Shown piece after piece: positions 47,411 to 51,816 of a stretch of DNA of 64,000 bases. Both the position numbers and the translations under genes were made by a program. The notes under the pieces are model-generated. The model did no database searches. It had not been told where the DNA came from and saw nothing but the letters and a program-made list of their open reading frames with translations. This stretch comes from Acidobacteriota bacterium (lineage in GTDB: Bacteria; Acidobacteriota; Terriglobia; Terriglobales; Acidobacteriaceae): positions 186,001 to 250,000 of the forward strand of contig JABCZL010000007.1 in the NCBI GenBank assembly GCA_013289685.1, written 5' to 3'. How positions within the stretch are numbered: the stretch's first letter is position 1; the number at the start of each line of letters is the position of its first letter.

Positions 47411-47500
47411 CGGCTAGCTCCGGGCTTCTAGCTTAGATGTTTTGGCTTAGCTAGAAGCTAGAAGCTAGCAGCTATCAGCTAAAAAGGCTAAGAGCTGATT
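47411..47500 (+). repeat. Word array in the atpH-atpA gap (CTAGCTTAG/AGCTAGAAGC)
   Basis: Left arm GGCTAGCTCCGGGCTTCTAGC is largely complementary to right-hand AGCTAGAAGCTAGAAGCTAG; more words (CAGCTATCAGCT, GGCTAAGAGC) follow. The array fills almost all of the 91-base gap and ends just before atpA. Same word as before etfA. Confidence 0.8.
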
Positions 47501-47501
47501 T

Positions 47502-49034
47502 ATGGCACAAATCAAAGCAGACGAAATCACGAAACTGATCCGCGAGCAGATCGAGAACTACGAAACCCAGATCTCGGTGGATGAGACCGGCACCGTCATC
47601 ACGCTTGGCGACGGCATCGCGCGCGTCTACGGACTCGACAAGGTCATGGCTGGCGAACTGCTGGCCTTCCCGCACGGCGTGGCCGGAATCGCCATGAACC
47701 TGGAAGAAGATCAGGTGGGCGTGGTGCTGCTCGGCGAGTACACCGAGATCAAAGAAGGCGATGAGGTGAAGCGCACCGGCCGCATCATGAGCGTGCCCGT
47801 GGGCGACGCCATGATCGGCCGCGTCGTGAACTCGCTTGGCGAACCGATCGACGATAAGGGCCCCATCGCGACCGATAAATTCATCGCGCTGGAACGCATC
47901 GCCCCCGGCGTCATCGACCGGCAGCCTGTGCGCGAGCCCATGGCCACCGGTCTAAAGGCCATCGACAGCATGATCCCGATTGGCCGCGGCCAGCGCGAAT
48001 TGATTATCGGCGACCGCCAGACCGGCAAGACCGCGGTTGCGCTCGACACCATCATCAACAGCAAAGGCAACGACCTGATCTGCATTTACAACGCGATCGG
48101 GCAGAAGCGTTCCTCGATCGCGCAGGTGGTGAAGATTCTGGAAGATGCCGGGGCGATGGAGTACACCATCGTCGTGGCGGCGTCAGCCTCCGAACCGGCG
48201 CCTATGCAGTACATCTCCCCGTATGCGGCGACCGCGATGGGCGAACACTTCCGCGACAGCAAGCGCCATGCGCTGGTCATTTATGACGATCTTTCCAAGC
48301 ACGCGGCATCGTATCGCGAGATCTCTCTGCTGTTGCGGCGGCCACCGGGACGCGAGGCGTATCCCGGAGACGTTTTCTATCTTCACTCGCGACTGCTCGA
48401 GCGCTCGTCCAAGCTGAGCGACAAGATGGGTGGCGGCTCGCTGACCGCGCTGCCGATCATCGAAACGCAAGCGGGCGACGTGTCCGCCTACATTCCAACC
48501 AACGTAATTTCGATTACCGACGGCCAGATTTATCTGGAAACGGATTTGTTCAACCAGGGCGTGCGCCCCGCGGTGAACGTGGGTCTGTCGGTAAGCCGCG
48601 TGGGCGGCAGCGCGCAGATCAAAGCCATGCGGCAGGTTGCGGGTACTTTGAAGCTGGAACTGGCGCAATACCGCGAACTGGCCGCATTTGCGGCCTTCGG
48701 CAGCGATCTCGACAAGGCCACACAGGCGCAGTTAAACCGCGGCCAACGCCTGGTCGAACTGCTCAAACAGAACCAATTCTCGCCGCTGCCGTTCTCCAAG
48801 CAGATTCTGATCATCATGGCCGGCACGGGCGGATTCCTCGACGATCTTCCTGTAGCGCAGGTGCGCGAGTTCGAAGCTGAACTCTACAAGTACGTCGACT
48901 CCACCAATCCCGGCCTGCTGCGATCGATCATGGAGAAAAAGATTCTCGATGACACACTGAAAGGCCAGTTGCAAGCCGTGATCAAAGAAGCGAAGCAGCA
49001 GTTCGTGGCCTCGCGGGAAGTAGTAGCGAAGTAA
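47502..49034 (+). CDS. atpA: ATP synthase F1 subunit alpha
   Basis: A 510-residue nucleotide-binding but regulatory subunit of the alpha3-beta3 head. Seen: [23 protein letters not shown] near 26, [34 protein letters not shown] near 170-189 (P-loop GDRQTGKT), [13 protein letters not shown] near 257 (Walker B) and [22 protein letters not shown] near 341. The arginine finger region [13 protein letters not shown] near 365 is complete. Length and motifs normal. The array upstream replaces any ribosome site: only AGAGCTGATTT lies near. Confidence 0.95.
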
Positions 49035-49036
49035 GC

Positions 49037-49118
49037 TTTTGGCTCTTGGCCTTTGGCTCTTGGCTTGAATCACAGAGTCACAGGCCAAGAGCTAATAGCC
49101 AATAGCCAAGAGCAGTTT
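49037..49118 (+). repeat. Word array in the atpA-atpG gap (TTGGCTCTTGG)
   Basis: Left arm TTTTGGCTCTTGGCC with a second TTTGGCTCTTGGC, right arm GGCCAAGAGC, TAATAGCCAATAGCCAAGAGC (in pieces), complementary to the left. Ends about six bases before the atpG ATG. Same word as before atpD and moaA. Confidence 0.8.
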
Positions 49119-49123
49119 TTCCA

Positions 49124-50206: not shown

Positions 50207-50216
50207 AGAAAACCGC

Positions 50217-50291
50217 TTTTGGCTCTTGGCCATTGGCTCTTGGCAAAGTCCAAAGCTAAAAGCCAAGAGCCAATAGCTAAGAGCTGAGGTT
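50217..50291 (+). repeat. Word array in the atpG-atpD gap (TTGGCTCTTGG)
   Basis: Left arm TTTTGGCTCTTGGCCATTGG plus another CTCTTGGC; right arm GCTAAAAGCCAAGAGCC and AATAGCTAAGAGC. Left and right are inverted copies with a short AAAGTCC loop. Ends a few bases before the atpD ATG. Confidence 0.8.
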
Positions 50292-50293
50292 TT

Positions 50294-51736
50294 ATGCCTG
50301 AAAACGTAGGACATGTCATTCAAATCGCGGGGCCAGCGGTCGATGTGCAGTTTCCCGAGGGGAAACTGCCGCCGATCTATGAGGCTGTAAAAGTGGTCAG
50401 CGACGGCTTCACCGTGCCCAGCCCGATCAGCGTAATTCTCGAAGTGCAACAGCACCTGGGCGAAGGCCGCGTGCGCTGCATCGCCATGCAGCCCACCGAC
50501 GGCATGGTGCGCGGCATGAAGGCCATTGATCAGGGTGGGCCGATTTCCGTGCCCGTGGGCCGCGGGACGCTGGGCCGCGTGATGAACGTGATCGGCGAAC
50601 CGGTCGATCAACTTGGCCCGGTCGAATACAAAGAGAGAATGCCGATCCACCGTCTCGCCCCGGCGTTCGACGAGCAGGCCACGAGCGCGGAGATGTTCGA
50701 GACCGGCGTGAAAGTCATCGACTTGATCCAGCCATTCCTGAAGGGCGGCAAGATCGGATTGTTCGGCGGCGCGGGCGTGGGTAAGACCGTAGTTATCATG
50801 GAGCTAATTAATAACGTCGCCAAGAATCACGGCGGCTACTCCGTGTTTGCCGGCGTCGGCGAACGCACCCGCGAGGGCAACGACTTGTGGCTGGAAATGA
50901 CGGAGTCGGGTGTGATCAAACCGGGCAAGCCCGCCGAATCGAAGGCCGCGCTTATTTACGGCCAGATGACCGAGCCTCCAGGGGCGCGCCTGCGCGTCGC
51001 GCTGACCGGGCTCACGGTCGCGGAATATTTCCGCGATGCCGAGGGCGCCGACACCCTGCTCTTCATCGACAACATTTTCCGATTCACGCAAGCCGGCTCG
51101 GAAGTTTCCGCGCTGCTCGGCCGCATGCCCAGCGCCGTAGGCTACCAGCCCAACCTGGCGACGGAAATGGGCGAACTGCAGGAACGTATCACGTCCACCA
51201 AGAAAGGCTCGGTCACGTCGGTCCAGGCGATTTACGTGCCTGCCGACGACCTGACCGACCCGGCCCCGGCGACCACCTTCGCTCACCTCGACGCGACCAC
51301 GGTGCTGTCGCGCGCCTTGACCGAAATTGGAATTTATCCCGCGGTCGATCCCCTGGCTTCGACCTCGCGCATTCTCGATCCGCGCATCGTTGGCCAGGAG
51401 CACTACGACGTCGCGCAGAACGTGAAGAAGACTCTGCAGACCTACAAAGATCTGCAGGACATCATCGCGATTCTCGGCATCGACGAGTTGACCGAGGATC
51501 AGAAACTGACCGTGGCGCGAGCTCGCAAAATTCAGAAATTTCTCTCGCAGCCGTTCCACGTGGCCGAACAGTTCACCGGCGCGCCGGGTCGTTACGTCAA
51601 GATCGCCGACACCGTGAAGGGCTTCAAAGCGATTGTGGAAGGCAAGTACGACGACATCCCTGAGCAGGCGTTCTACATGAAGGGACCGATCGAGGAAGTG
51701 CTGGAAGCAGCAGAGAAGATGAAGGCGGCAGCGTAA
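50294..51736 (+). CDS. atpD: ATP synthase F1 subunit beta
   Basis: A 480-residue catalytic subunit. Seen: [19 protein letters not shown] near 156-174 (P-loop GGAGVGKT), the catalytic Glu in [13 protein letters not shown] near 188, [32 protein letters not shown] near 256-286 (Walker B and DELSEED-side hinge) and [21 protein letters not shown] near 412. Length and motifs normal. The array upstream lies where a ribosome site is expected; the ATG is preceded by GAGCTGAGGTTTT, giving only a weak GAGG. Confidence 0.95.
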
Positions 51737-51740
51737 AGAA

Positions 51741-51816
51741 CGGACCTCGGGCGTCAGACCTCGGACCTCGACAAGGTTGTGCTGGTGTCCAAGGTCTGAG
51801 GTCCGACGGCAGTCTT
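51741..51816 (+). repeat. Word array in the atpD-atpC gap (GACCTCGG/CCGAGGTC type)
   Basis: CGGACCTCGGGCGTCAGACC then TCGGACCTCGAC on the left; GTCCAAGGTCTGAGGTCCGAC on the right (in pieces), complementary to it. Fills the 81-base gap. A different word from the two preceding gaps. Confidence 0.75.

Follow-up and report, generated by a model that had tools for sequence, protein, structure and literature searches.

The ATP synthase genes of an Acidobacteriota bacterium (GCA_013289685.1) are separated by short gaps that are filled with repeated words of 7 nt and inverted copies of those words. This article describes these heptad arrays, their occurrence in related species and elsewhere in the genome, and the processes that may have produced and maintained them. 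The operon lies within a 64-kb stretch of contig JABCZL010000007.1, here called the window, to which coordinates refer unless another contig is named. It occupies 45645-52222 on the forward strand in the order b'-b-delta-alpha-gamma-beta-epsilon, all seven genes being confirmed by Pfam, and the genes and junction arrays are as follows:

45645..46100, +, atpF' (b'), Pfam ATP-synt_B
46097..46870, +, atpF (b), Pfam ATP-synt_B
46874..47410, +, atpH (delta), Pfam OSCP
47398..47411, +, 3' end of atpH with its TAG stop (GATTAGCTCTTAGC), an inverse copy of the letters preceding the atpA start (~47487-47499)
47411..47501, +, atpH-atpA junction array, 91 nt, words AGCTAGA and similar; the gap folded by itself gives two hairpins
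47502..49034, +, atpA (alpha), Pfam ATP-synt_ab
49035..49123, +, atpA-atpG junction array, 89 nt; 5' arm 49035-49067 (GGCTCTT), 3' arm ~49081-49113 (AAGAGCC)
49124..50206, +, atpG (gamma), Pfam ATP-synt
50207..50293, +, atpG-atpD junction array, 87 nt; 5' arm ~50209-50244 (GGCTCTT), 3' arm ~50262-50293
50294..51736, +, atpD (beta), Pfam ATP-synt_ab
51737..51817, +, atpD-atpC junction array, 81 nt, words GGACCTC / GAGGTCC
51818..52222, +, atpC (epsilon), Pfam ATP-synt_DE

The proposed element is a heptad inverted array of the form X-loop-X' placed after one gene's stop codon and before the start codon of its downstream neighbor. In each of the four gaps from delta to epsilon the words repeat every 7 nt and are accompanied by inverted copies, as an earlier note on this DNA had described, although the gap sizes it gave (76-91 nt) were slightly off. 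The absence of arrays at the two upstream junctions was also correctly reported: b' and b overlap by 4 nt and b and delta are separated by 3 nt, and there is therefore no room for an array. The expectation that the gaps fold better than shuffled sequence was likewise borne out, the sense-strand folding z-scores against dinucleotide shuffles being -2.25, -8.41, -6.28, and -3.34 from atpH-atpA to atpD-atpC, with 3, 0, 0, and 2 per 200 shuffles folding as well as the real gap. A consensus scan of the four gaps detected no intrinsic terminator (GC stem followed by a T run) on the forward strand, and none of the gaps matched a family of Rfam 15 at gathering score.

Distribution of the arrays in related species and across the genome

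A scan with the gamma subunit identified 79 loci, from 78 of which 254 gaps were delimited in addition to the four of the window; gaps were dropped if they were cut by contig ends, exceeded 700 nt, or had an unclear start. The term genus is used here for an AtpG identity of about 80% or above, which comprises 36 loci (Candidatus Sulfotelmatobacter and kin, soil and peat Acidobacteria) plus the window, and sister group for an identity of 68-79%. At a lag-7 match of at least 10 of 14, arrays are present in 100 of the 130 genus atp gaps, the window's four included, and in 2.4% of shuffles; 85/130 are retained at the stricter cut of 11/14, and strong inverted arms are found in 83/130. The sister group has arrays in 41 of 64 atp gaps at 10/14, and the two sets of gaps outside both groups have them in 3/26 and 2/38 (5/64 together), shuffles in this comparison giving 1-2%. 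On the same contigs, and with purpose-built gene calls, 84/124 co-directional atp gaps of the genus carry arrays versus 2/30 flanking co-directional gaps, with 0/15 in flanking convergent and 2/2 in flanking divergent gaps, and the corresponding sister-group values are 37/62 versus 7/30. The array trait is lineage-bound and strongly enriched in the atp operon, a wider pattern than the earlier note had claimed. At three loci (L031, L041, and L051) a compact GAGACGTAGCTTGCTACGTCTC-like element replaces the heptads at the same atp junctions, and at another (L045) the atpA-atpG gap of 586 nt is enlarged by a putative inserted small gene, with a short CAACTGG-type stretch still preceding atpG.

Through the exact word TTGGCTCTTGGC a ribosomal protein operon (rpsL to rplQ) was located on contig C10, in which rpsG, tuf, rpoA, and rplQ were checked by Pfam and the remaining ribosomal protein genes were assigned by eye. 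Arrays occupy 20 of its 32 gaps at a strict cut and 23 at a softer one, and their words vary from gap to gap, with GGTCGTT, GGCTCTT, and AGCTTCT types recurring. The genus, with this genome counted, supplied 22 short ribosomal protein loci, where arrays are found in 45/84 co-directional gaps and in 44/56 of those measuring 40-330 nt, some of these gaps being rough in that a few conceal small uncalled genes. In eight loci outside the family the counts are 1/37 and 1/7 (40-330 nt), and the median gap is 10 nt. Loci carrying PF00346 were tried as a comparison and set aside; they have mostly 0-nt gaps and mixed homologues, and arrays in 1/8 genus versus 2/10 outside gaps of 40-330 nt are uninformative and, if anything, do not separate the groups.

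The genome survey covered 2.414 of 6.846 Mb with a purpose-built open reading frame (ORF) caller, an array being defined as a lag-7 match of at least 11 of 14; it counted 7-nt units, arrays of other unit length (e.g., AGTAATTG) being left out. The word TTGGCTCTTGGC has 48 genome copies versus 3 for its reversed control, and the rarity of the words elsewhere in the genome that the earlier note named as a refutation does not hold; five of the copies lie in atp gaps and eight are spread over four gaps between ribosomal protein genes of the C10 operon. The 411 kb of intergenic DNA contain 122 lag-7 arrays (297/Mb), and the 2.0 Mb of coding DNA contain 46 (23/Mb). Lag 14 gives 147 intergenic clusters, and the lags from 4 to 15 other than 7 and 14 give 9-64 each (lag 5, 9; lag 8, 26; lag 11, 26). 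Intergenic counts are somewhat elevated at lags 12, 13, and 15 as well (55, 58, and 64 clusters). Most arms viewed consist of a few imperfect units, frequently with a second, inverted arm. Among gaps of at least 28 nt, arrays occur in 67/949 same-strand gaps, including the four atp gaps, and also in 13/220 convergent and 11/278 divergent gaps. With 67/949 same-strand gaps occupied genome-wide, four of four in the atp operon is far from typical.

Occupancy is linked to the codon adaptation index (CAI), which was trained on ribosomal protein genes and used as an expression proxy that also tracks core genes; the sample comprised gaps of 40-330 nt without the ribosomal protein operon and without atp. 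Flanking CAI of co-directional gaps is 0.581 with an array (n=50) versus 0.540 without (n=603; p=1e-9), and by rising CAI class arrays are found in 2/169, 3/169, 20/168, 12/101, 6/34, and 7/34 of these gaps. Convergent and divergent gaps, here taken together, have no clear CAI trend (16/295 with arrays, p=0.18). Above a CAI of 0.545, arrays are present in 45/338 co-directional versus 9/150 other gaps (p=0.019).

Three further heptad arrays lie in the window, together with its only Rfam match, a Moco (molybdenum cofactor) riboswitch, which is just upstream of the second of these arrays in one shared gap:

16419..16528, +, AGCTAGA array of the same kind as that at atpH-atpA, downstream of a gene for an electron transfer flavoprotein (ETF domain)
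20365..20541, +, Moco riboswitch
20629..20697, +, CAAGAGC x10, the longest heptad array in the window
28924..29024, strand unassigned, TGATTGA array in a convergent gap

Other hairpin families share the intergenic space. One, formed by GTCATCCTGAGCGAAGCGAAGGATC and its inverse, recurs in gaps of this genome (for example C1:277843-278094, C1:109203-109326, and window 9517-9724) and sometimes lies in the loop of heptad hairpins, as in the 228-nt atpH-atpA gap of locus L031; another is built of ACCACAGAGGACACAGAGG words (C3:124709-124781, C1:99828-99962, and C3:139902-140090).

Form, word grammar, and translation signals

The position and form of the hairpins are retained across species while their words are replaced. 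Of 177 atp gaps, 118 have good arms, and in these the 5' arm begins a median of 4.5 nt past the stop codon; in 109 atp gaps the slopes on gap length are 0.05 for the stop-to-arm distance, 0.78 for the loop, and 0.11 for the arm-to-start distance; extra DNA enters mainly the loop in three of the four atp gaps. Heptad hairpins in other co-directional gaps of the genome (n=28) start a median of 5 nt past the stop, and those in five scored convergent gaps start 0-10 nt past it. For non-heptad hairpins in co-directional gaps (n=39) the loop slope is 0.10 and the median distance past the stop is 22 nt, gaps without heptads having been sampled at about one half in the slope analysis. The proportion of species pairs whose arms at the same gap share any 9-mer is 11% (n=398) at 85-90% AtpG identity, 24% (n=59) at 90-95%, and 3/5 above 95%, and with so little sharing at 85-90% identity no conserved palindromic core common to the copies was found. 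Different gaps share a 9-mer in 17% of 111 pairs within one genome versus 6% of 5018 pairs between genomes. The copying process within gaps that the earlier note inferred fits such a shared lexicon, although the sharing is modest. Hairpins that persist across species in spite of rapid word replacement suggest that these gaps carry an unusual form of gene punctuation.

What the words have in common is a short grammar. In a scan of 3-letter IUPAC motifs, the top excess was RGY at each 7th position, present in 67.8% of 270 arms (atp gaps plus other co-directional gaps) versus 20.6% in a null of column-shuffled arrays; an earlier candidate grammar, RRNNRNY, failed on many arms. In relatives, RGY exceeds RCY by 48 to 8 in atp 5' arms, and RCY exceeds RGY by 56 to 2 in 3' arms. 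Arm polarity is kept in 136 versus 9 cases in atp gaps and 57 versus 8 elsewhere, as judged by a word list that was written in 5'-arm form after inspection of the data and outside which 63 arrays fell. Fixed polarity was ruled out as proof of transcription direction, the X-loop-X' layout reading X first on either strand.

Of the 57 atp 5' arms that could be scored, 26 have RGY in register with the stop codon (p=1e-8, chi-square, ancestry uncorrected), with TAG stops accounting for 18/23 and others for 8/34 (p=1e-4); without atpH-atpA the TAG link is 7/12 versus 8/34 (p=0.04). The register is present at atpH-atpA (11/11) and atpA-atpG. In 9 of 26 genus genomes, that of the window among them, the atpH-atpA gap contains a direct or inverted copy of the final 7 coding letters with the stop; such a copy is seen in 0/90 cases at the remaining three junctions. 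When the coding end (last 15 letters) and the opening 10 letters of the atpH-atpA gap are paired with its final 30 letters, the value is 0.42 versus 0.15 in gap-shuffled sequence, and the atpH-atpA array therefore extends into the end of atpH. Stop codons are dense within the arms, at 0.096 per nt in atp 3' arms versus 0.0545 (sd 0.0045) column-shuffled and at 0.062 versus 0.043 in 5' arms, with stops in all three frames in 51% of the 3' arms versus 17.5% column-shuffled; array-less co-directional gaps have 0.032 per nt (n=509).

Shine-Dalgarno signals are weak at many of the occupied junctions. Duplex energies before atpA, atpG, atpD, and atpC are -3.2, -2.1, -6.5, and -6.3 kcal/mol (random, about -2.5), so that the earlier claim that the arrays replace the Shine-Dalgarno sequence is partly right; atpD has GAGG near its start, and the atpC match falls within the 3' arm. 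Over ATG starts in the genome, mean pairing is -2.39 with an array (n=43), about the random level, versus -4.05 without (n=474; p=0.0016), the start distances outside atp being rough since gene starts there came from the purpose-built ORF caller. Over the genus and sister group together, energies of -6 kcal/mol or lower are found in 0/51 atpA-atpG, 1/44 atpH-atpA, 1/40 atpD-atpC, and 16/52 atpG-atpD gaps. Within the genus, gap-only end-to-end pairing is 0.49-0.53 at three atp gaps versus 0.17-0.25 shuffled, and 0.26 versus 0.18 at atpH-atpA; sister-group values are 0.31-0.40 versus 0.14-0.20, with 0.16 versus 0.16 at atpH-atpA. No sign of hairpin selection apart from heptads was seen in array-less co-directional gaps, where pairing is uncorrelated with CAI (r=0.03).

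Origin and possible function

The favored explanation, to which a probability of roughly 0.4 is given, is that the arrays arise by 7-nt slippage and that highly expressed operons of a single Terriglobales lineage retain them as stop-start hairpins. Growth would proceed by slippage, which at some junctions would take the stop codon as its starting point; word and stop would then share a register and the 5' arm would carry RGY (often TAG plus Y) every 7 nt, with the second arm formed as an inverted copy of the first. Part of this step is borne out by the data. Turnover of words would then be fast, as the species comparison demonstrates, with the inverted structure and the position after the stop retained. 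Retention may come about because the folded gap acts as a clamp, in which a ribosome at the stop codon would cover the 5' arm and release the 3' arm overlying the next initiation site, and the downstream gene, mostly devoid of a Shine-Dalgarno signal, would be read in step with the upstream gene. Since 7 is 1 modulo 3, a stop within the word would recur in all three frames and could catch out-of-frame ribosomes. A fuller version, less likely than not, is that this lineage rebuilt its ribosomal protein and ATP synthase junctions with a heptad inverted array whose form is conserved and whose sequence is not, which can draw the stop codon into its register, supplies stops in three frames, replaces the Shine-Dalgarno signal, and clamps stop to start even as its words are replaced within the genus; this would amount to operon-wide coupling by sequence-free hairpins.

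Several observations weigh against the stop-start clamp. If mRNA pairing were selected, G-U should exceed A-C mismatches in the stems, and the missing excess speaks against a function at the mRNA level: none is seen in atp stems (186 vs. 164 in 120 hairpins, p=0.26) or in 33 other co-directional gaps (37 vs. 52, p=0.14), eight convergent or divergent gaps have 7 versus 13, and a tendency toward G-U, counted per hairpin, is confined to atpH-atpA (10 vs. 2, p=0.04). The missing excess would be expected of a strand-symmetric process acting on the DNA, or of arrays not yet old enough to have one. Arrays also stand in the convergent and divergent gaps counted above, which below a CAI of 0.545 exceed co-directional gaps in occupancy (7/145 vs. 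5/337), and flanking co-directional gaps reach 7/30 in the sister group. Twelve of the 32 gaps of the C10 ribosomal protein operon have no array at the strict cut (four of the 32 measure less than 40 nt). The loop rule is broken at atpD-atpC (d3 slope 0.63) and is weak in the 28 other co-directional gaps, with slopes of 0.34 on the stop side, 0.20 for the loop, and 0.53 on the start side. RGY and its polarity are weak outside atp (18 vs. 12; 15 vs. 7), the stop register is 0/5 at atpD-atpC and has no TAG link at atpG-atpD, and the antisense strand of atp 5' arms is also enriched in stops (0.074 per nt). The species compared share ancestry and are not independent, which makes p-values across relatives too small. 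Finally, structure right after the stop lowers coupling in a random reporter library, according to the portion of a review that cites this work (Chemla et al., as cited in PMC12548453).

The observed occupancy needs either selection at highly expressed junctions or a mutational process aimed at them, and the latter, acting without function, is the main rival, a serious contender if probably not the true account. In highly expressed operons, supercoiling and transcription would extrude hairpins or open single strands, where 7-nt slippage and inverted template copying would build and renew the arrays, and coding DNA would purge what gaps tolerate. Strand-symmetric mismatches, rapid word turnover, and the link with CAI all agree with such an origin, as does the heptad excess known in other bacteria, for which slippage has been proposed (PMC4679880, PMC4692102). 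Insertion into gaps of about 10 nt, as in ribosomal protein operons outside the family, would moreover place arms near stop and start by necessity. Tiny gaps in essential operons are nevertheless poor targets, yet they are the most occupied; convergent and divergent gaps are less occupied than co-directional ones at high CAI, and in three of the four atp gaps the added DNA stays clear of the outer flanks.

Protection of mRNA, whereby a hairpin after the stop would block exonucleases or RNase E and stabilize each cistron, is unlikely. REP (repetitive extragenic palindromic) hairpins can protect mRNA in Escherichia coli, and the folding z-scores of the atp gaps and the placement of hairpins close behind the stop, in other co-directional as in convergent gaps, are as protection would have them; protection does not require pinning at the start codon, and the lack of G-U preference tells against it as it does against the segment protection suggested in the earlier note. 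That note's further suggestion that mRNA hairpins set subunit stoichiometry fares poorly: arrays precede the three-copy alpha and beta and the one-copy gamma and epsilon subunits alike, as well as most ribosomal protein junctions, which makes stoichiometry alone unlikely as their point. It is quite improbable that the arrays are supercoil sinks or sites for topoisomerase or nucleoid proteins in highly transcribed operons; strand symmetry, the expression link, and an arm polarity constant across many words would suit DNA-level elements of this sort, the words are too diverse for a single site, RGY apart, the 7-bp step is out of line with the helix, and we know of no protein partner, no search for one having been made. 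Least probable of all are mobile elements of REP or REPIN type moved by a Y1 transposase. The genome has four Y1_Tnp matches, and the copies are intergenic, inverted, and dispersed; set against this, the words differ at orthologous gaps and from gap to gap, and no shared core beyond RGY was found, although no dedicated search for foot motifs or linked transposases was made. REP and bacterial interspersed mosaic elements (BIMEs) of enterobacteria are intercistronic inverted repeats of conserved sequence in co-transcribed genes, which the present arrays resemble in layout and from which they differ in sharing only RGY N4.

Heptad repeats are already known in other phyla; no report of arrays of this kind in Acidobacteria or Sulfotelmatobacter was found among the open-access papers searched. 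A close likeness is to the TAACTGA repeats of marine Beggiatoaceae, described in the available sections of MacGregor (2015; PMC4679880) as intergenic 7-nt tandem words close to start codons, also inside ribosomal protein operons, in bacteria where Shine-Dalgarno sequences are rare; they are mentioned there in Cyanobacteria and Bacteroidetes too. TAACTGA is, in those sections, one word in direct repeats (with one indirect set) and without predicted structure, whereas the Acidobacteriota arrays comprise more than a dozen words with inverted arms, replace their words at orthologous gaps, and occupy most junctions of two operons; no TAACTGA array is among those listed for the genome and its relatives, no dedicated search for the word having been made. 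The intergenic heptamers GGGAATC of Xanthomonas and GGGGA(C/T)T of Nostoc, in the excerpted account of PMC4692102, often occupy corresponding gaps in related species, where they vary in length and sequence, and 70 and 75 convergent pairs with potential stem-loops are given for Xanthomonas. Unlike the arrays here, they have a fixed G-rich word discussed as G-quadruplex, and the excerpt describes no tie to ribosomal protein or atp junctions. Long simple sequence repeats (Mrazek et al., 2007, as cited in PMC4679880 and PMC4692102) have an excess of 7-nt units for which slippage was proposed, and the mainly intergenic lag-7 excess here is similar; as cited in the parts available, they are tandem only, with no inverted gap-filling structure described. 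Translational coupling by RNA unfolding, in which a stop-start hairpin is opened by the terminating ribosome, would be the same mechanism as that proposed for the arrays; the examples in the available part of the review (PMC12548453) are single gene pairs, and the arrays stand at most junctions of two operons and would be made of slippage words.

A similar layout occurs in another phylum. In 350 kb of a Nostoc plasmid, lag-7 arrays (at least 12/14) number 19; by eye, about 12 form inverted pairs, and 14 pass a low-complexity filter. RGY was not supported as a cross-phylum rule, one of these 14 fitting it (7% vs. 29% null). On the plasmid of Nostoc sp. UHCC 0302 (NZ_CP151101.1, for example 45491-45676 and 53639-53815), inverted CAATTCG heptad pairs with loops of about 60-155 nt have the X-loop-X' layout with another word grammar. 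GGCTCTT or CCAATAG tracts were also encountered in Cupriavidus, Mycetohabitans, Vibrio, and Nostoc plasmids; these were selected by the query, so no rate follows, and no inverted second arm was seen by eye in the stretches viewed.

If the arrays are functional, junctions of highly expressed operons would be kept by structure alone while sequence turnover is near saturation, and conservation of this sort would escape sequence-based searches. The 36 related genomes, with several words per junction, provide a natural test bed for stop-start coupling where Shine-Dalgarno signals are weak. If they are not functional, they would strongly exemplify how transcription-linked mutation can remodel essential operons. 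In both cases, the scattered heptad repeats of the literature become tied to highly expressed operons.

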